Origin: a virus
Reading direction: 5' to 3' (one strand)
IMG/VR virus record: IMGVR_UViG_3300031963_000940
Location: 1 to 23,460 of that record
DNA length: 23,460 nucleotides
A program made the translations under genes and the position numbers. Below, in pieces: positions 1-20,907 of this stretch; positions within the stretch are counted from its first letter, which is position 1; the number at the start of each line of letters is the position of its first letter. The notes under the pieces are model-generated. The model was not told the DNA's origin, ran no database searches, and saw nothing but the letters and a program-made list of their open reading frames with translations.

Positions 1-352
1 ATGCTGCTTCTTCTTCTTTGTTGTCAAAGCCATCCCAATTAGTTATACGTTGTAGTTTTCTATTGCCTTTGTAATCAGCAAATAAATTCTTTTTGTTTGT
101 TGTACTGCCTGTACCATCAAATACTAGAATTACTCTAGTAGGTTTAATATGTCTAATTGCAAAACCGATCGACTTTAAGAAACCAGTGAGCCCACCAATG
201 TGGGCTCCTCCTGGATTCATATGATTGATCATGGCAAAGCTTCTTAGAAATGTGTTCATTGAATCTACTAGTAGTATTCTACTATTTAAATGCAATGGAT
301 CCTCTTGTGAGTTTTGTATACCATCAAGTATTTGCTTAAGCGTCTTGTTCAT
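1..352 (-). CDS. rnh: 5'-3' exonuclease / T4 RNase H-like, N-terminal part (runs off the window)
   Basis: I read 117 codons without a stop from an ATG at 352 to the window edge, so the 3' end is missing. The visible part has the FEN/5' nuclease layout: ILLVDSMNTFLRSF (about residues 26-39) carries the first metal-binding Asp, GGLTGFLKSIGFAIR follows, then VILVFDG (about 74-80) with the second Asp, and ADYKGNRK, the basic helical-gateway region. In T4-type phages this enzyme removes RNA primers and flaps behind the fork. The start lies inside the end of uvsX (17-base overlap), so the two are probably translationally coupled. The family assignment is firm; T4 RNase H versus another phage FEN homologue cannot be settled without the C-terminus. 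Confidence 0.85.
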   Translation of the reverse strand, partial: MNKTLKQILDGIQNSQEDPLHLNSRILLVDSMNTFLRSFAMINHMNPGGAHIGGLTGFLKSIGFAIRHIKPTRVILVFDGTGSTTNKKNLFADYKGNRKLQRITNWDGFDNKEEEAA

Positions 353-1445
353 CGTCATTGTCAATTTCAATCATTGGTGATATTTTACTACTTTCTTCCC
401 ATTCACTATTGTCTTCTGTAACTTGAATTTCTTCAATTTTTACATTTTCACCAAACCACTCATGTGCGTGAGCTGCCTTATAAGCTTTCTCATCGTCTTT
501 AGTGTCAGGAATAAATCCATGTGGTGTAACAATTACTGTTGATGTTGTAGCAATACCACAATCAGCGTGAATCTTGTCAATTGATATTTTGGTACGTTTA
601 GCAAACTCTACTTTTTTACCTTTATTTTGAGCGTGTATTTTAGATGTACCACTATTTGTAACATTACCAAATGTAATTACTAATGAAGCATCCCAATACA
701 TTGTATTACCACCTTTATTAGTCATTCTTGGTTGACTCATAGGTGTAAGTGCTGGTTGAACTCCTACTTTATTAATTACAAAGAACGTGTTAGTGAATTG
801 GTAACTTTCTTTACGTGACATTGGAAACTTCTGGTTAATGAAATTACCAAATTGTGTCGACATAGCACCTGCATTCCACATTGGATTATTTTTTCCTTGT
901 TCAATACTCATATCACATGGTATAGAACCTACTGAATCCCATAAGAATAACAAGTCATGAGGTAAGTTACCTTTCTTTTGCTCATCTAAAATGTCAGCGA
1001 TAAATGCTGCTACATCCTCAATTGAATTTAGAGTTGATCTGTCAACATATAAGAAGAAACCACTATAGTTTAATACTTCTCCTGTTGCTTCATCAGGAAC
1101 AGCTTCACAACTGAATCCCATTTTTTGAGCGTGAGCGAAATCCCATTTCATCTCAGTAATAATGAATACAGGTAACACTCCCATTTTTTGGGCAGCTACT
1201 GCTGCTTCAATCATTAAAGTTGTTTTTCCTGTATCCGATCCACCTCTAGCAATTGTGATATGACCCATTGGTATACCAGGAATTGAAAGTGCATCTTGTA
1301 CTGCAGGTGAGAATGGAATCCACTTCTGCGCTTTAAAATTTGATGATTGATCTAGTTTTTTAGTTTTCTTAAACTTATCAAGATCAAATGTACCTTTAAT
1401 AGCTTGAGAAACACTAGCGTTTACGCTTTTTGCTGTTTTAGCCAT
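336..1445 (-). CDS. uvsX: UvsX/RecA-like recombinase
   Basis: A 369-aa strand-exchange ATPase. Walker A is GGSDTGKTT (residues 68-76) and Walker B is LLFLWDS (165-171). The downstream stretch around NKVGVQP and PRMTNKGGN matches the DNA-binding loop region of RecA/UvsX cores. The tail is strongly acidic (EIDNDDEQDA), as in many RecA-like proteins. T4 UvsX is of similar length (about 390 aa). It would load on ssDNA with the gp32-like protein encoded just upstream and drive recombination-dependent replication and repair. ATG at 1445 follows the extended gp32 frame by only 7 bases, and the 3' end overlaps the nuclease start. No intein or frame break is visible. Confidence 0.93.
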   Translation of the reverse strand: MAKTAKSVNASVSQAIKGTFDLDKFKKTKKLDQSSNFKAQKWIPFSPAVQDALSIPGIPMGHITIARGGSDTGKTTLMIEAAVAAQKMGVLPVFIITEMKWDFAHAQKMGFSCEAVPDEATGEVLNYSGFFLYVDRSTLNSIEDVAAFIADILDEQKKGNLPHDLLFLWDSVGSIPCDMSIEQGKNNPMWNAGAMSTQFGNFINQKFPMSRKESYQFTNTFFVINKVGVQPALTPMSQPRMTNKGGNTMYWDASLVITFGNVTNSGTSKIHAQNKGKKVEFAKRTKISIDKIHADCGIATTSTVIVTPHGFIPDTKDDEKAYKAAHAHEWFGENVKIEEIQVTEDNSEWEESSKISPMIEIDNDDEQDA

Positions 1446-1452
1446 TGTTTAG

Positions 1453-1680
1453 TTATTTTTGGAATAATTCATCAAATTCATCTTCATCAAACCCTTTTTT
1501 CTTAGTGTTAAGAGTGTAGTTAGTTTTAGGTGCTTCTACTACTGGTGTTTCAGCGACTTCTTCAGTTGTTTCTTCACCACTGTCTTCACTTGGTTCTAAC
1601 CATTCCATTAACATGGTTTTCATTTCATCAAACTCATACTTCTTATATAATGAAAGTACGTCTGGTTGTTCTGAAATTCA
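1453..1680 (-). other. 32: in-frame acidic C-terminal tail of the gp32-like gene, beyond a UGA codon
   Basis: Read in the same frame as the upstream gp32-like core, codon 193 is TGA (1680-1678) and 74 sense codons follow to TAA at 1455-1453. The peptide begins ISEQPDVLSLYKKYEFDE, becomes Glu-rich (EPSEDSGEETTEEVAE) and ends FDEDEFDELFQK, resembling the acidic protein-interaction tail of gp32. A Trp (TGG) would fit the TGA position, giving VIKKWISEQ. The extended stop leaves only 7 bases before uvsX, matching gene spacing elsewhere. Possible causes are UGA readthrough, a TGG-to-TGA change in the phage, or a base-call error. No ATG near the junction suggests independent translation. Confidence 0.75.
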
Positions 1681-2256
1681 TTTTTTAATCACTTCATTAT
1701 CTTCTGATAATGGTGATGTTTTTGGTTTAATACGAATAGATGATTTGTTGAATTTAGTACCTGTAACTTCAGGTCCAACTGTATCAACTGTTAAGTCTCT
1801 ACCATCCATAATGTCTGTGTAATCTCCGATATCATCATCTTCAGCAATACCTAATAGTTCAAGATACATTTCCTTACCAAATTGCCACATGCGAACACCT
1901 TTGTCTTCTTCGCCTTTAACAATTACAGGAACAAATACTCTCATTTTAGGTTCAATCTTTTTAGCTAATGACCAATTTTCTTTGTCACTAGTTTTACGTA
2001 GTTGTTGTGCAAATTCAACAATTGGATCTTTTTCACCAAAGTTAGTTAATGACAACATGGTTTTGTTTCCAATACCATAATGGAACATTACTTCTTTGAA
2101 TGGATTTGATTTGTTGAACTTAGATGGAACAATACGAATCACTGATTTGCCTACTGGTGGTATCCAGAAATTTTTAGCACGGTCGTCATTCTTGGCGCCG
2201 CCTTTGCCTTTGTTTTGCAACGATTGCATACGTTGCTTAATTGCATTTAAATCCAT
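1678..2256 (-). CDS. 32: gp32-like single-stranded DNA binding protein, core up to an in-frame UGA
   Basis: From ATG at 2256 the frame encodes 192 aa and then meets TGA. FWIPPVGKSVIRIVPSKFN (about 30-48) matches the start of the T4 gp32 core, and RMWQFGKEMYLELL fits a later strand of the OB fold. I prefer 2256 to a longer open frame starting at 2337: the extra residues look non-coding and overlap the homing endonuclease. The T4 zinc site is not preserved: a His remains at residue 59 but the core has no Cys. The protein coats ssDNA and recruits recombination and replication proteins; uvsX and the nuclease follow. Oddly, the frame stays open for 74 codons beyond the TGA with a typical acidic tail (separate entry), so the real product may be 267 aa, closer to T4 gp32 (301 aa). 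Confidence 0.85.
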   Translation of the reverse strand: MDLNAIKQRMQSLQNKGKGGAKNDDRAKNFWIPPVGKSVIRIVPSKFNKSNPFKEVMFHYGIGNKTMLSLTNFGEKDPIVEFAQQLRKTSDKENWSLAKKIEPKMRVFVPVIVKGEEDKGVRMWQFGKEMYLELLGIAEDDDIGDYTDIMDGRDLTVDTVGPEVTGTKFNKSSIRIKPKTSPLSEDNEVIKK

Positions 2257-2321: not shown

Positions 2322-2879
2322 TTATTTCCATCTCCATGTAAAACCTCTAGCTATTTTTAATTCTCCACGACAACACCTTCCTATATTATCATTATAATAA
2401 CCATACATTTTTACAGCGGCATGTTTAGATGATTCCCATTCTTTAACAAATTCTCCTTGTTTAGTGAATTGAAGAACTGGTTTTCTTATTTTGTTAATAA
2501 ATTTAGCTGTTTTAGGTCTAGAATTAGCTTTAGTCATTTTTTGTTTTGATGACTCTGAGAATTTGCGACCTAAAAGACGTTTACTTATTTTTTGTTTAGT
2601 ACTATCAGTATGATATTCAGGACCGCCTCCACCTTTTTTGTTAGGATTCATTATAATAAATCCCCATTGTCTAAATTGTTCTATCCAATATATTTCTAAT
2701 GGCGTCCAATCTTTACGATCTAATGAATGTATTTCATCAATATAATCAAAGGTAATTTGAGGACCAAATTTAAATTTATGGTCCTTTTCACGGGAATTGT
2801 TTTTAGTCTTACCTATATAAACTTTATTAGGATTATTATCTATATTAGTAATTAAATATATTTTAGTGACATCTGTCAT
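2322..2879 (-). CDS. free-standing GIY-YIG homing endonuclease with NUMOD DNA-binding modules
   Basis: A 185-aa protein. The N-terminus has the GIY-YIG core as KIYLIT (6-11) and KVYIGKT (19-25), followed by Arg30, His34 and a candidate catalytic Glu in LEIYWIEQF (61-69). Residues about 91-122 (STKQKISKRLLGRKFSESS region) look like NUMOD3, and about 131-185 (KPVLQFTKQGEFVKEWESS and the Arg/Trp-rich end) look like NUMOD1; both are DNA-binding modules of homing nucleases. It lies as an intact independent gene between the 139-aa gene and the gp32-like gene, with its own upstream TATAAATA-type element. Such enzymes cut endonuclease-free relatives and spread by gene conversion. There is no sign that it is inside an intron or intein. 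Confidence 0.88.
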   Translation of the reverse strand: MTDVTKIYLITNIDNNPNKVYIGKTKNNSREKDHKFKFGPQITFDYIDEIHSLDRKDWTPLEIYWIEQFRQWGFIIMNPNKKGGGGPEYHTDSTKQKISKRLLGRKFSESSKQKMTKANSRPKTAKFINKIRKPVLQFTKQGEFVKEWESSKHAAVKMYGYYNDNIGRCCRGELKIARGFTWRWK

Positions 2880-4672: not shown

Positions 4673-7600
4673 TTAAATACATGTTCCATCACCAGCTGTT
4701 AATACTGGGTTTACAGATCCGTTTATTACAACATTAGAGAATGTCATGCTATTAAATCCAGTTAATGTGTTATTACAATATACATTATAGTCACTATCAA
4801 CTAAAGATATATTTTGTCCTGATATAGTAGAACTATATACTACTACTATATCATATGTTCCTATTTGATTTGTATCAACAGTTGCACCATTGCCTGGGAC
4901 GTTTGGATCTACTCCTGTAACATTTGTCACTCCAACACCATTCACTGTTATACTAGATAAGTATATTTCTACATCTAATGATATATTAGTTGCTATTTGT
5001 ATTGTAACTGTTGAAGCTGCTGGTGATGAGCTAGGACATGGTGTAGGATCAGGTGTAACACTAGGTGTAACACTAGGTGTAACACTAGGTGTTCTAGTTG
5101 GTGTTGGGGTGAATGATGGTGTAGGGGATGGATCTTGACTACATGTTGAACCTTGTGTTAATGTTATATATGGACTAGTAAAGAATACTGTACCTTCTCT
5201 AGCACAAACATATCTTTGGTATCCATTAACTACTGAGCCTTCTCTAAATGTTCCTCCACAATCTATATAGCTAAAGTCATAAGCATTTCTATTTGAAGTG
5301 CCATCATCAGCTGATAATTCATATGTGTAACAAACTATAGGAGGTGTTGTAGTTGGTGTTATACTTGGAGTAATACTTGGTGTAACACTTGGTGTCACAC
5401 TAGGTGTAGAGGTACTTGTTGGTGTGATAGACGGAGTCACACTAGCAGTTCTAGTAGGTGTTATACTAGGTGTTGGTGTATTTGAAGGAGTTATACTTGG
5501 AGTTACACTAGCAGTTCTAGTAGGAGTTATACTTGGAGTAACAGTATTACTTGGAGTAACACTAGGTGTAGCTGTGTTACTTGGAGTAGCTGTTATACTA
5601 GGTGTAGCTGTATTAGTTGGTGTAATACTAGGTGTTCTAGAAATACTAATACTAGGTGTTACACTTGGTGTAGCTGTATTAGTTGGTGTAACACTAGGTG
5701 TAGCTGTGTTACTTGGTGTTGCAGTAATACTAGGCGTAGCAGTGTTAGTAGGTGTAATACTAGGTGTTCTACTGATGCTAATTGATGGAGTAGTACTTGG
5801 AGTAGATGTGTTAGTAGGTGTAATACTAGGAGTATTAGAAATACTAATTGATGGAGTTATACTTGGTGTAGCAGTAATACTAGGCGTAGCAGTGTTAGTA
5901 GGTGTAATACTAGGTGTTCTAGAAATACTAATACTAGGTGTTACACTTGGTGTAGCTGTATTACTTGGAGTAACAGTGTTACTTGGTGTAACTGTATTTG
6001 ATGGAGTAATACTTGGAGTAGCAGTGTTACTTGGAGTAACAGTATTACTTGGTGTAGCTGTTATACTTGGTGTTATACTCGGAGTATTAGATATACTAGT
6101 TGAAGGTGTTATACTTGGAGTACTACTAATTGAAATACTTGGTGTTACACTAGGTGTAGCTGTATTACTTGGGGTAACAGTATTGCTTGGTGTAACTGTG
6201 TTACTTGGAGTAATGCTAGGAGTATTACTAATTGAAGTACTAGGTGTTATACTTGGAGTACTACTAATAGAAGTACTTGGAGTGATACTTGGAGTAGCTG
6301 TTATACTTGGTGTAACTGTGTTACTTGGAGTGACAGTGTTACTAGGTGTTATGCTTGGAGTATTAGATATACTTGTTGATGGTGTAATACTTGGAGTACT
6401 ACTGATAGAAGTACTTGGTGTGATAGAAGGTGTCGCACTAAAGCTAGTACTTGCTGTAACACTAGGAGTAGTACTAATACTAATACTTGGTGTCGCAGAA
6501 GGTGTAGCAGTATTACTTGGTGTAACTGTTACTGTTGGAGTGAAACTAATACTTGGAGTTATACTTGGAGTAACACTAATACTGATACTTGGTGTTGTAC
6601 TAGGTGTAGATGTTAAACTTGGTGTTATTGAAGGTGTTGCTGTTATACTAGGAGTAGCAGTTACACTTGGAGTCATAGATACACATACTCCACTTCCTAC
6701 AACAATAGCATCTCCTGTACCATGACTTCCACTAACTATTAAATAATTTCCTGATGCTATACCTGGACCTGTTAAATAGAATGCATCTAATGAACTTCCT
6801 ACTAATGTTTGAATTTCAGCTATAGTCCATTTATCTGTTCCATTTGGTACTTGATATAAAAATTCTCCTATTTCTAGTGGCTGATCAGCATCATAAACTA
6901 ATATTTGTATTGTTGGGTTATAACAAGTATTATATGAATTATCAGATATGTAATAGTATTCTCCATCTAATGGATTAGAAGTAGAAGGTGTTACTGTTAC
7001 TGATGGTGTTGCAGATACAGTAATTGAAGGTGTTCCACTAGGTGTAATACTTGGAGTTGTTGTAGCTGTTATTGATGGAGTAACAGTATTTGTTGGTGTT
7101 ATTGAAGGTGTTAAACTTGGTGTTTCACTAGGTGTGATACTTGGAGTAACTGTATTACTTGGAGTTATAGAAGGAGTAATACTTGGAGTAACAGTGTTAC
7201 TTGGTGTTATACTAGGTGTGACTGTAGAAGTTACACTTGGTGTTGGTGTTTCACTAGGTGTAGCAGTAATACTAGGTGTGTTAGATATACTAATAGATGG
7301 TGTTGTTGAATTTGTTGGAGTAATACTTGGAGTATTACTTATACTAATACTTGGAGTAGCTGTAGTGGTAGGTGTTAATGATGGTGTTCTACTTACACTT
7401 ATAGATGGTGTTGTAGAGTTTGTTGGAGTAATACTAGGTGTATTACTAATAGAAATACTTGGGGTAATACTAGGTGTATTACTCATTGTTGGAGTAGAAG
7501 TTACAGTTGGTGTAACACTTATACTTGGTGTTTCACTTGGTGTAGCTGTAATACTTGGAGTAACACTAATAGAAATACTAGGCGTTATACTTGGAGTAGT

Positions 7601-8527
7601 AGATATACTAATAGATGGAGTAATACTAGGTGTGTTACTTATACTAATAGATGGAGTAGCACTAATAGAAATACTAGGAGTAGCAGTTATTGAAGGTGTG
7701 TTACTGATAGAAATACTAGGAGTAGCACTTGGTGTTTTACTAACACTAAATGATGGTGTTAAACTAATAGTAGGAGTTATACTAATAGTAGGTGTAATAG
7801 ATGGAGTAATACTTATTGTAGGTGTTACACTTGGTGAAGGCATTTCAGCTATGCTCATATCTATTTCTTCACGAATAGATCCAAAATCCACTATTTTTGG
7901 TCCAATAGATACTAAATTTGATATTACACGAGTATATTGTAGAGGATCATTTAAATAAATAGATAAACCTGGTATTGTTCTTTCAGCGTTTTGGATTGAT
8001 CTTAAATTAGTATCTTTAACTCCAGATTCAATTCTAACGTTGTTATCATATATGTCATTTAATGGTCCTACTAGTTTCCATATAATCTCAACTACATTGT
8101 AAGAAATAATAGCAACACTATTATTGATTATTCCATCATATGTTGCTCTACTTATCTCAACTATATAAGGAGATACTGATGCTTTTAATTGAGCAAAGTA
8201 TCTAGTAAAATATTTTAAAGCGTAATTAGATTCTGTTGGTGGAATATATTCTCCTGTAATTAAAGGAGTATTTAATAAATCACCAAACCTTTGAGTAAAA
8301 CCTCCTGATATGACATTATTTTTCAATAAAAAGTCACTACTCATAGGTGTGTCAGATGTCACACGGGTTAGAAGTATTGATGTGGAAGTATGATTTTCTC
8401 CTGTCCAATAATTATTATTTTTATCTTTATGATAAAAACCAGAATAAGATTCATTAGATGCGGCGGTAACAAAGTTTCCACCTTGATCGTATCCTCTCTC
8501 TATAATATATGATTCTGGTATGAACAT
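4673..8527 (-). CDS. giant TPS-repeat structural protein, probably tail-tip or surface-exposed
   Basis: A 1284-aa protein with a modular layout. Residues 1-229 form a normal-composition N-terminal domain, probably the anchor to the virion. Residues 230-515 and 619-1063 are almost entirely Thr-Pro-Ser repeats (TPSITPSISISNTPS style), with a shorter block at 1132-1169. Between them lie compact domains at 516-618, about 1064-1131 and 1170-1284, with paired Cys in short motifs such as CYTYEL, YIDCGGTF and YVCAREG. The Pro/Thr/Ser stretches are expected to be extended spacers displaying the small domains. The ATG shares its first base with the TAA of the upstream baseplate gene, so it is translationally coupled to tail genes. 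Similar Thr-Pro-Ser proteins occur in environmental phages, but I know no assigned function. Adhesin or fibre is the best guess. Confidence 0.8.
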   Translation of the reverse strand: MFIPESYIIERGYDQGGNFVTAASNESYSGFYHKDKNNNYWTGENHTSTSILLTRVTSDTPMSSDFLLKNNVISGGFTQRFGDLLNTPLITGEYIPPTESNYALKYFTRYFAQLKASVSPYIVEISRATYDGIINNSVAIISYNVVEIIWKLVGPLNDIYDNNVRIESGVKDTNLRSIQNAERTIPGLSIYLNDPLQYTRVISNLVSIGPKIVDFGSIREEIDMSIAEMPSPSVTPTISITPSITPTISITPTISLTPSFSVSKTPSATPSISISNTPSITATPSISISATPSISISNTPSITPSISISTTPSITPSISISVTPSITATPSETPSISVTPTVTSTPTMSNTPSITPSISISNTPSITPTNSTTPSISVSRTPSLTPTTTATPSISISNTPSITPTNSTTPSISISNTPSITATPSETPTPSVTSTVTPSITPSNTVTPSITPSITPSNTVTPSITPSETPSLTPSITPTNTVTPSITATTTPSITPSGTPSITVSATPSVTVTPSTSNPLDGEYYYISDNSYNTCYNPTIQILVYDADQPLEIGEFLYQVPNGTDKWTIAEIQTLVGSSLDAFYLTGPGIASGNYLIVSGSHGTGDAIVVGSGVCVSMTPSVTATPSITATPSITPSLTSTPSTTPSISISVTPSITPSISFTPTVTVTPSNTATPSATPSISISTTPSVTASTSFSATPSITPSTSISSTPSITPSTSISNTPSITPSNTVTPSNTVTPSITATPSITPSTSISSTPSITPSTSISNTPSITPSNTVTPSNTVTPSNTATPSVTPSISISSTPSITPSTSISNTPSITPSITATPSNTVTPSNTATPSITPSNTVTPSNTVTPSNTATPSVTPSISISRTPSITPTNTATPSITATPSITPSISISNTPSITPTNTSTPSTTPSISISRTPSITPTNTATPSITATPSNTATPSVTPTNTATPSVTPSISISRTPSITPTNTATPSITATPSNTATPSVTPSNTVTPSITPTRTASVTPSITPSNTPTPSITPTRTASVTPSITPTSTSTPSVTPSVTPSITPSITPTTTPPIVCYTYELSADDGTSNRNAYDFSYIDCGGTFREGSVVNGYQRYVCAREGTVFFTSPYITLTQGSTCSQDPSPTPSFTPTPTRTPSVTPSVTPSVTPDPTPCPSSSPAASTVTIQIATNISLDVEIYLSSITVNGVGVTNVTGVDPNVPGNGATVDTNQIGTYDIVVVYSSTISGQNISLVDSDYNVYCNNTLTGFNSMTFSNVVINGSVNPVLTAGDGTCI
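5021..5134 (-). repeat. short Thr-Pro-Ser coding repeat block C
   Basis: About 38 codons encoding DPSPTPSFTPTPTRTPS and TPSVTPSVTP units, a spacer between the last two compact domains of the TPS protein. Confidence 0.8.
5619..5681 (-). repeat. 63-nt exact direct repeat, copy 1 (copy 2 at 5901-5963)
   Basis: Identical over 63 bases to 5901-5963, offset by 282 nt (94 codons). It encodes the SISISRTPS-containing unit and keeps frame. Confidence 0.9.
5721..5771 (-). repeat. 51-nt exact direct repeat, copy 1 (copy 2 at 5871-5921)
   Basis: Identical over 51 bases to 5871-5921, offset by 150 nt (50 codons), with mismatches at both flanks. It lies in TPS block B and keeps the reading frame. Confidence 0.9.
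5871..5921 (-). repeat. 51-nt exact direct repeat, copy 2
   Basis: Second copy of the 5721-5771 repeat. It partly overlaps a different 63-nt exact repeat at 5901-5963. Confidence 0.9.
5901..5963 (-). repeat. 63-nt exact direct repeat, copy 2
   Basis: Second copy of the 5619-5681 repeat. Recombination between the two would delete or add 94 codons in frame. Confidence 0.9.
6983..7840 (-). repeat. Thr-Pro-Ser coding repeat block A (286 codons)
   Basis: Degenerate short repeats encode TPSITPSISIS, NTPSITP and related units of 3-10 residues. Base periodicity is obvious on the plus strand as recurring ggtgta/ggagta and acttgg/actagg words. It begins at MPSPSVTPT and ends just before a non-repetitive island. 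Confidence 0.9.
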
Positions 8528-11500
8528 TATTGTGGTTTTTCAAATCTAATAACTCTGAAATTAGCTGTGCTAGTACCAACACCACCACTTAATAGTGGTC
8601 CCCCATAAATACTTAATCCAGGTATATAATTATTAGATGCGTTTGCTTGTAAAAGATTATAAAATGTTAAAAATAATTGATCAAAAGAATTAGCTGGAAA
8701 TAAATAGTATGTTGATAAGTCTGTACCATCATTTGCTATTTGATAATCATCCATTGATGTATTGACATGCAAAATAGCAGTATTTATTTTACTATTATCA
8801 ATATGATCTATTTTTGATATTTGATTAGATGAACTTCCTATAGTTGTAGATGCTGTAAATGTTTTTATGTTTATAAAACTTTCAACTTGTCCAAAATATG
8901 TTTTACTATAAGCATCTTTAAGTCTAGTGATATCATTATCTCCTCTGTTAACAGCATCTATATTTCCATTAGAATCTTGTCCTAATAATAATCTACTAAC
9001 AGTTTGATATAAGGATGAAGAACTACCACCTCCAGAAGGTGTTATAAAAGTATTATAATCAGCAGGAAAGTTTGGAGCAGTTCCTCCATATCTAGAAAGT
9101 GCTACAGCATGCCAGTTTCTTAAATAATATTCTATAGATGCTGTATCATAAAGAAAATCTAATATTTGTCTAATATAATTACCTTTTTCAGTAGCACTTG
9201 CTCCAGAATTTAAAAAATTATTTATACCTAAACTAAATTGTTTATATAAATCAAAATCAAACTCTGGTTTTTTATTTCCTGTTCTTCCAGAATTATATTT
9301 AGAAATAATATAAGTATATTGATTAACCATATAGTCAGCTATAGCACATAATAGATATCCATTTTTTGCTTGGTCAACCCTAGCAGCTGATATTATTGAT
9401 TTTAGTCTTGTTTTATCAACAATATATTTGTCTGTTATCTTATCATTATCTAATAAACAAATTTGAGTTCTTACAGTTGTAGTCCAATCATTATTTTGTA
9501 AATTATGATTAATACCTGTTATAATAAATCCTAAATTTTTGTTATAATAATCTCTAGGCAATATTGATTTATCAATAGTGAAAATTTGTCCTATAACTAA
9601 ACCACCTATACCATCAAGAGTAATTTCTAATTCAAAAGGAATTAAAGCTTTAAAATCAACATCACTTCCATTTAATTGATAATGCATTGTTTTTAATAAA
9701 CTACCAGCATTTATTACTTCATTTTCTTGAGGTACTGATGTTACCATCCATCCACTTCCTCCTGTTGGTTTTCCTAATACATTTACATTTAAATAACTAG
9801 ATAAAGATTCTAAGTTTTTAAATATATTATAATAATAAACATCACTTCCGCTAATAATTGTAGTTCCTAAAGTGAGGGTAGCTGGTGCTGTAGGATCGTC
9901 AAATGTAGGAGACATAATTCTATCAGTCAATCCTCTATTAAAGTATGTTTGAGTAGATGAATATATATCACCTAAGTTTCCAGTATCAGAGCCAGCGGTA
10001 CCAGCACCAATAGCTATCATAGTTGATTGCTCAGCAAATATACGAGAGTTTATTTTAACATCTCTACAAATACTTTTTAAACCAATTAAATCAAATTTAA
10101 ATTTACTATTTTTACTTGAATTTTCAAGGTATTTAGCATCAATAATTTGGACAAAATTTCTATCAGTATATAATTTAAAGTCATTTATACCACCTAAAGC
10201 TAAAGAAACAGCGTCTAAAACTTCTTGTAATAATTGAATAATATCAACTCCATCTGGTCCTCCATATAAACTTCTATATAACTGAATAATTTTACTCATT
10301 GATACAAATATATTTCCTACTAAACCAACACTTGTTGTACCTGGGGCTAAAAATTCAAATTTACTTATTGAAGCAGGAGTAGCTGTAGCTCCTAATGTTA
10401 AACTAGTGGTATCTAATTGTGAGTACACAACTGGAGAAAACCCAGTTGTTTTGTCTGTTATGAATGTAGCTTGAGAATTTTGAATTAAACATGTTGTAGG
10501 ATCAATACTCACAGAATCAATACTAGCTAAACATGGAGTGTTATATGGTATTGCTATAGATACAGCTGGTTTATTGTTTTTTTTATTTTTATATATAAAA
10601 AATTCATTAATGATAGCTATAAAAGCATTCATACTAATGTATTCTATACCAGTACCTTGAGTTTTACCATCACTTAATTTTATAATAACTTGTGTATCTA
10701 AATCTATACCAGTACCTCCAGTAGTATCTACTATGTAATTATCCCATGGACCTTTAATATAAGCGGATACATTTTTGGTTAATCTGGTTTTAATGTCTGC
10801 ATATATAGCATCCGCTTGGTCACGTAATATTTTTTGGTCATCAGTTGTTGAACCAGATATATATAATTCTCCTTGTATATTTCCACCACCAAATGAATAA
10901 GATTTTACCCATTCACTTTCATTAATTTTTCCAATAATATTTAAAAATATTTTTTCAAAATTGCTAAGTACTGGTTTTGGAGGAACTGAGGATGATAATG
11001 ATGGTGGAGTGTAGCTAGATCCTAAAATAATATTTGGGTTACCACTAGCTTTTAAAGTTTCAATTATTTCTCCTCTTGATATTAATGTAGTACTACATTG
11101 AAAACCTCCATTAGGCATTAATTGCCAAGAAAAGTTTTTAACATATCCTAATAAAGCATCATAATTACCATTAGTTTTGTCAATATCACTATCAATTTTA
11201 GTGTGTATTTTATCATCATTGAACCTAGCATCAAATACATCTATTGTTGGAATTTTAAATGTTGTTACTTCCTTAATGTTAGGATAGTCATTTAAATTAG
11301 TTGGAACATCATGATCAATATATTGAGACCAACCCCATTCTAAAAGAACAGTATATCCTGTTCTCATAAATAAAATTTCCAATTCTTCAAGTTGGTGTTT
11401 ATCCCAAGCCATAAATTGTATAGTGGCTTCTCTTAAAGAACCATAAGCGCTTTTATTAGTGATAGTTACTCCTGTGATACCAGGCATTGGTCTTAAACCA

Positions 11501-19137: not shown

Positions 19138-20907
19138 TTAACTTCCAAATTCTACACCAGTTGGTAAGATGTTGAAATCTAATAAGATAAATTCAGCTGT
19201 ACGAGTTGGTTGTAAGTAAATTTGACCTACTAATTGATTTCTATCAATTACATCTGGAGTGTTATTTGTGTCATCCATTACTACTCTGAAAGCATATAAA
19301 CCTTGTCTTTGTTGTACACTTTCTAAGTATGGAGTAACTTGAGATAAGAATCTGTTTCTTGTTACAGTTGTGTTTTGTTCAAATACTAATGTCTTAGAAA
19401 CATTACCAATGTAACGCTTAAGAGCAATTAATAATCTACGAACGTTAATTCTATCTAAAGCACTAGCTTTTTGTTGTAATGTCTTTTGACCAAATGCTGT
19501 AACACCTACGTTAGGGAAAGTAGCGATTGGGTTAACTTTACCAGCATATAAATTATCACGATTTGTTGGAGATAATTTTCTTTCTGCTTGAATAACACCA
19601 CCTAAACCACCACGATTTAAACCAGCAGGAGCAAACCATTCAGCACTTACATTATCGTTGAAAGCATAAACACCAGCCATAATTGTTGAAGCAGGTACCC
19701 ATACGTTTCTACCAGTTTCTTGAGATACAACTTGAACCCAAGGCCAATAAGCACCAGCATAGTTAGTATCTAAACCTTGTGCTTCAGTTACTGGAGTGTT
19801 AATAGTTGAACCATATGGAGTTAAATCCATAATATAGAAATGATCACCTCTTTCTTCAGCATTTGAAATATAATTTGTTTGAGCTGTAGCGTGATCAGCT
19901 TGTTGTAAACCTGGAGTGATTAGTAATTCATAATCATAATCATCTTTGTTACTTAAAATGTTACTTGCAGTAGCATAGTTAGCAACTGGAACACCTTGAG
20001 GAGCAGTAGCTGAGTTGTTTTGGAATAAACTATTTCCAATAAATGGAATGTCATTACCAACAGCACCACTAAATGCACCACCAAATGAACCACTACCAAT
20101 TTGAGGTAATGAAGCTGAATAGCTTTGGTTATTTGAATCTGTAGCAACACCACCTACGTTATTAAAATATGATGGAGTATCTCTAACAGATTTAACTCTT
20201 ACATAGCGGCTATTGTTTGGATAGCTACCAGATAATTGAATATAATATCCACCCATATCAACATCATAAGATACAGTTCTTGATTGATCACCAATTACTG
20301 CGGCGATATAGTTAGGTTGTAATGGATCTAAAGATACATTAGAATAAGTTTCTAAAACAACTTTAGTATTTGTATTGTCATCACCACGACGAACTAATAC
20401 TGTGAAAGTACCTTGTTGTAAATTTACATTTGATACTTCCCACTTAACGTTATCTTGAGTTCCAGTAGCTAAAGCACCATTACTTAATAAAGAACTAGTG
20501 TTGTTGTTCATTGTACCAACATTGATTGTTTCTAAAACAAACGATGCAGTAAATCCACTGTTACCTGGAATTCCACTTGTACTAGCAGTTGTAGCACAAC
20601 TAGCTGTAGCAGCGGTGAATGAACCACTTGGTACTCTTGTTACTAAAATTGATTCACCACCTTGTAAAAAGTAGTTGTAAGCAGCAATGCTTGTTAAAAA
20701 CTCATAATTAGCACCTCCGCTAATAAATGAACCACCAAATCTGTTTTTAAAGTCACTATATGAAGTAACTACAGTTGGGATATACGGTTGACCTTTAACA
20801 GTCGGACCTACTAATGCCAAACCCACAGTTGGAGGTAATTGGGTTATTTGAGATAAGTCATTCTCACGTGTTAGTACACCTGGAGAAATTAATGTTTCTT
20901 GCGCCAT
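19138..20907 (-). CDS. 18: contractile tail sheath protein (gp18-like)
   Basis: A 589-aa protein (T4 gp18: 659 aa). The N-terminus ISPGVLTREND (7-17) is the standard sheath start, followed by VGLALVGPTVKGQP (28-41). The C-terminal core has NPIATFPNVGVTAFGQKTL (about 458-476), LDRINVRRLLIALKRYIG (about 481-498) and the final GQIYLQPTRTAEFILLDFNI strand-exchange region shared by sheath proteins. The Ser/Thr/Asn-rich middle is the variable outer domain. Subunits polymerise around the tube and contract to drive it into the host. The gene opens a transcription unit: a hairpin terminator and a TATAAATA-like element lie directly upstream. Confidence 0.93.
   Translation of the reverse strand: MAQETLISPGVLTRENDLSQITQLPPTVGLALVGPTVKGQPYIPTVVTSYSDFKNRFGGSFISGGANYEFLTSIAAYNYFLQGGESILVTRVPSGSFTAATASCATTASTSGIPGNSGFTASFVLETINVGTMNNNTSSLLSNGALATGTQDNVKWEVSNVNLQQGTFTVLVRRGDDNTNTKVVLETYSNVSLDPLQPNYIAAVIGDQSRTVSYDVDMGGYYIQLSGSYPNNSRYVRVKSVRDTPSYFNNVGGVATDSNNQSYSASLPQIGSGSFGGAFSGAVGNDIPFIGNSLFQNNSATAPQGVPVANYATASNILSNKDDYDYELLITPGLQQADHATAQTNYISNAEERGDHFYIMDLTPYGSTINTPVTEAQGLDTNYAGAYWPWVQVVSQETGRNVWVPASTIMAGVYAFNDNVSAEWFAPAGLNRGGLGGVIQAERKLSPTNRDNLYAGKVNPIATFPNVGVTAFGQKTLQQKASALDRINVRRLLIALKRYIGNVSKTLVFEQNTTVTRNRFLSQVTPYLESVQQRQGLYAFRVVMDDTNNTPDVIDRNQLVGQIYLQPTRTAEFILLDFNILPTGVEFGS

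Follow-up and report, generated by a model that had tools for sequence, protein, structure and literature searches.

The in-frame TGA at codon 193 of the gp32-like gene described here is probably, judging from sequence comparison, a strain-bubble chimera or a base error and not the mark of a programmed two-product gene. The window, which is the whole 23,460-nucleotide stretch analysed, is the only sequence among all those examined that carries this TGA. The tract around the TGA is mosaic, and intact copies of the gene exist.

The gp32-like gene and its in-frame stop

The gp32-like frame runs on the minus strand from 2256 to 1453. It opens with ATG at 2256, reads TGA at codon 193 (1680-1678) and continues for 74 sense codons to a TAA at 1455-1453. 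The C-terminus of the continuation is ...KKGFDEDEFDELFQK, and its last residues are DEDEFDELFQK. The ATG of the uvsX-like gene is at 1445, 7 bases past this TAA. The preliminary description had reported a TGA at codon 193, an acidic 74-codon continuation with this ending and a final stop 7 bases before uvsX; translation of the frame from ATG 2256 to the TAA confirmed all three. The ORF list gives 2337 as the start of the frame; relatives support ATG 2256. All features are listed in Table 1.

Table 1. Features in and around the gp32-like gene of the window
Feature	Position	Strand	Basis or remark
UvsX/RecA-like recombinase	336..1445	-	ATG 7 bases after gp32 TAA; profile matches
gp32-like ssDNA-binding protein gene, broken at codon 193	1453..2256	-	PF08804, phrog_1192, phrog_224, relatives
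Variable acidic tail with conserved EFDELF tip, then TAA	1453..1590	-	Alignment of relatives
Codons 194-222, conserved body segment 3' of the TGA, not acidic tail	1591..1677	-	Conservation
Haplotype-switch tract, 82 bp, with 6 of the 10 differences from the 60-kb contig	1648..1729	.	Five other alleles found in relatives
In-frame TGA, codon 193	1678..1680	-	TGG in 66 of 67 distinct relatives, ATC in 1
Homing-endonuclease-like ORF, upstream of the gp32 gene	2322..2879	-	In all near-identical contigs

Because the frame past the TGA is kept open in all relatives covering the codon, its openness is not due to chance, and by this comparison the sequence 3' of the TGA reads as genuine coding sequence. 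The gene is predicted to encode an ordinary phage gp32-like ssDNA-binding protein (SSB), which is 267 aa long in close relatives. The first 192 aa match the Pfam gp32 family (PF08804) with 44.1 bits against a cut-off of 26.8. The read-through form gave no Pfam match; it matches phrog_1192 (E 9e-20) and phrog_224 (E 1.5e-9) over residues 2-247, which span the TGA. An acidic C-terminal tail is present in relatives and in the window frame 3' of the TGA. The AlphaFold model of the SSB has a mean pLDDT of 40.5, too poor to use for the OB-fold core, and places codon 193 within a helix (187-196) with low confidence.

The protein resembles T4 gp32 in the profile match of its first 192 aa, which is above the curated cut-off, in its acidic C-terminal tail and in its position next to a UvsX-like gene. 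However, it is remote from T4 gp32 in sequence, and a sequence search of solved structures gave no match. The gp32-like SSB of Flavobacterium phage vB_FspM_immuto (Immutovirus) is 46-48% identical to the window SSB, and the neighbouring genes come in the same order in both: SSB, RecA-like recombinase, 5'-3' exonuclease. A further likeness is that the vB_FspM_immuto SSB is full-length with an FDDLF tip; it differs in its longer tail and in having no internal stop.

Codon 193 in relatives

From two IMG/VR scans, 67 distinct gene sequences covering codon 193 were obtained. The codon is TGG in 66 of them and ATC in one; none has a stop. All 67 continue past the codon, and almost all finish in an acidic tip of the EFDxLF type. 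Since none of the 67 stops at codon 193, the gene is full length throughout the group. The TGA haplotype was found in no other viral or species-genome contig searched, in searches from which records very close to the genome of the window itself may be missing. A looser, degenerate TGA pattern matched 8 contigs, none of which encodes gp32.

These counts bear out the earlier suggestion that a Trp codon (TGG) would fit the position. The preliminary description had also considered homologues that all end at this codon and lack an acidic tail, and the relatives are the opposite of that. Its proposal of a base-call error or a recent loss of the tail holds in a narrower form: because 66 of the 67 distinct relatives read TGG, a base error or a very recent loss private to the window is supported.

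Position of the break in the protein

W193 and the ~30 residues after it (WISEQPDVLSLYKKYEFDEMKTMLMEWLEP) are part of the conserved body. In 16 sequences, W193, Q197, P198, D199, K206, M212, K213, L216 and L220 are invariant or nearly so. Segment 193-222 can still be aligned in relatives of only ~46% identity; from about residue 223 on, the sequence is the variable acidic tail. The TGA had been taken as the boundary between the gp32 core and its acidic tail; that boundary lies ~30 conserved residues away, and codon 193 is inside the conserved body. Truncation at codon 193 therefore takes away these ~30 residues and the entire tail.

The conserved tip EFDELF (1453-1482) is acidic-aromatic, ends the SSB tail and is strongly conserved in almost all relatives. 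It recalls the tip with which bacterial SSB binds its partners.

In T4 gp32, the acidic domain is the site that binds the partners UvsX, UvsY, gp59 and Dda (PMC3016280). By its title, a study cited in that review shows the acidic domain to be required for assembling the replication machine.

A mosaic tract around the TGA

Five IMG/VR contigs (G001-G004 and G012) are near-identical to the window, at 99.7-99.98%. G012 begins at window position 2036, short of codon 193. The other four cover the codon, come from other IMG datasets and all read TGG. One of them, the 60-kb contig G003 (IMGVR_UViG_3300031857_000191), spans the whole window with 10 differences in 23,460 bases. Six of the 10, the TGA included, fall within 82 bases (1648-1729), for which a union bound gives ~7e-10. 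They are synonymous changes at I176, E188 and L203 (a two-base TTA/CTT swap), the substitution V189L, and TGG/TGA.

The five companions of the TGA are alleles present in other relatives. One relative, locus L044/L086, is the same as the window over 1583-1701 (119 bases) except at 1678, where it has TGG; across the gene it is only ~90% identical. No perfect donor for the whole tract was found among the sampled contigs. The codons 3' of the TGA are undecayed. The clustered differences carry alleles of other relatives and the flanks are identical to another strain, which is the pattern of a strain-chimeric tract. From the clustering, the alleles of the relatives and the near-matching relative with TGG, the TGA emerges as a private base in a tract switched from another strain. 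On these alignments, the window switches haplotype over ~100 bp, and of the bases in the tract the TGA alone is shared by no relative.

Co-conversion by the homing endonuclease is an unlikely source of the tract, because the near-identical contigs do not differ from the window anywhere between that ORF and the tract. Two more differences private to the window are in the tail sheath gene at 20032 and 20061, 29 bp apart, and are possibly a small strain switch.

Readthrough and recoding of the TGA

The preliminary description had proposed that UGA readthrough gives tailed and tailless forms of the SSB. Leakiness at some rate in the window strain, with Trp or another residue inserted, is very improbable. 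The downstream frame is intact, and a UGA with A as the next base is comparatively prone to leak. Against it, the stop occurs in 0 of the 67 distinct relatives, and the protein is broken within its conserved body instead of at the junction of core and tail. RNA folding 3' of the TGA is unremarkable (z -1.35; matched by 22 of 200 shuffles), so no significant stimulatory structure was seen there. No suppressor tRNA was found in the searches, which included 60 kb of near-identical contig G003, a result compatible with basal leakiness. Less probable still is a TGA that is both real and leaky, by which one genome would give a majority of truncated SSB and a minority of full-length SSB.

Conserved UGA readthrough was rejected on the relatives' codons. 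The window gene resembles programmed readthrough genes in the open frame after its in-frame UGA, but its stop is conserved in no relative and no stimulatory element was identified. Nothing points to a programmed site, and there is no programmed two-product system. The proposal of two forms thus fails: the TGA is unconserved and lies in a mosaic tract, TGA is a normal stop in the lineage, and no suppressor tRNA was found.

A general reading of TGA as Trp by this phage, that is, an alternative code, has a negligible probability and was rejected. No other called gene of the window ends with TGA (20 end with TAA and 1 with TAG), as such a code would allow. However, the window genes have 74 TGG codons and no in-frame TGA besides the one at codon 193. 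Three ORFs of G003 end at TGA with the next stop 1-7 codons on, and a tRNA with a UCA anticodon was not found in this contig.

G003, which is also locus L091, carries at 6870-9155 a phage-borne tmRNA predicted by ARAGORN, with the tag ANEYALAA. Beside it are six tRNA genes (Leu, Gln, Asn, Ser, Thr and Glu), with no stop suppressor.

Origin of the TGA

Mixtures of related strains are known to yield chimeric contigs (PMC7299287). When an assembler follows one branch of a mixed-strain bubble, possibly with an error, the expected product is a mosaic tract about as long as a read that holds a private nonsense base. The TGA is a private G-to-A base on the coding strand, within a short tract carrying the haplotype of another strain. 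Most probably the assembler took the minor-strain branch of a graph bubble together with a sequencing error, or the TGA comes from a consensus error or a rare nonsense read. If the TGA is such a stray base, most real genomes of the phage would read Trp there.

The TGA allele could also be real in the sampled population. Genuine recombination over a short tract, together with a real nonsense mutation, would leave an indistinguishable pattern. In that case a single phage genome would carry a sporadic nonsense mutation, in a tract acquired by recombination with a relative; we regard this as possible but unlikely. The companion alleles are true variants carried by relatives, T4-like phages recombine readily, and the undecayed frame 3' of the TGA is what a very recent mutation would leave. 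The 192-aa SSB would probably be defective, and the genome would survive through coinfection or be a dead end. Against this mutation stands the loss of the conserved residues and of the whole tail, the partner-binding site in T4 (PMC3016280); a genome crippled in this way would not be expected to dominate a consensus.

An artefact is favoured because, by analogy with T4, a stoichiometric replication protein lacking segment 193-222 and its entire tail should be crippled. A strain-bubble chimera or base error is the most likely origin and a sporadic nonsense mutation comes second, and the cause is most likely assembly or sequencing instead of a real mutant. In metagenomic contigs, one private base is enough to mimic a recoding event. 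Clustering of differences against a near-identical contig, here 6 of 10 in 82 bp, is a quick check before recoding is called in viral contigs.

Other features of the window

The homing-endonuclease-like ORF separates the gp32 gene from the next gene. Several relatives are without ~600 bp at this ORF, and homology to them jumps from 2324 to 2909-2922. Three loci (L038, L041 and L051) have copies of this ORF just upstream of gp32 that are 84-90% identical. The window encodes at 4673-8527 a 1284-aa protein with long Ser/Thr/Pro repeats of the TPSITPSISIS type. The long open frames on the opposite strand of this region are probably a by-product of the repeats.
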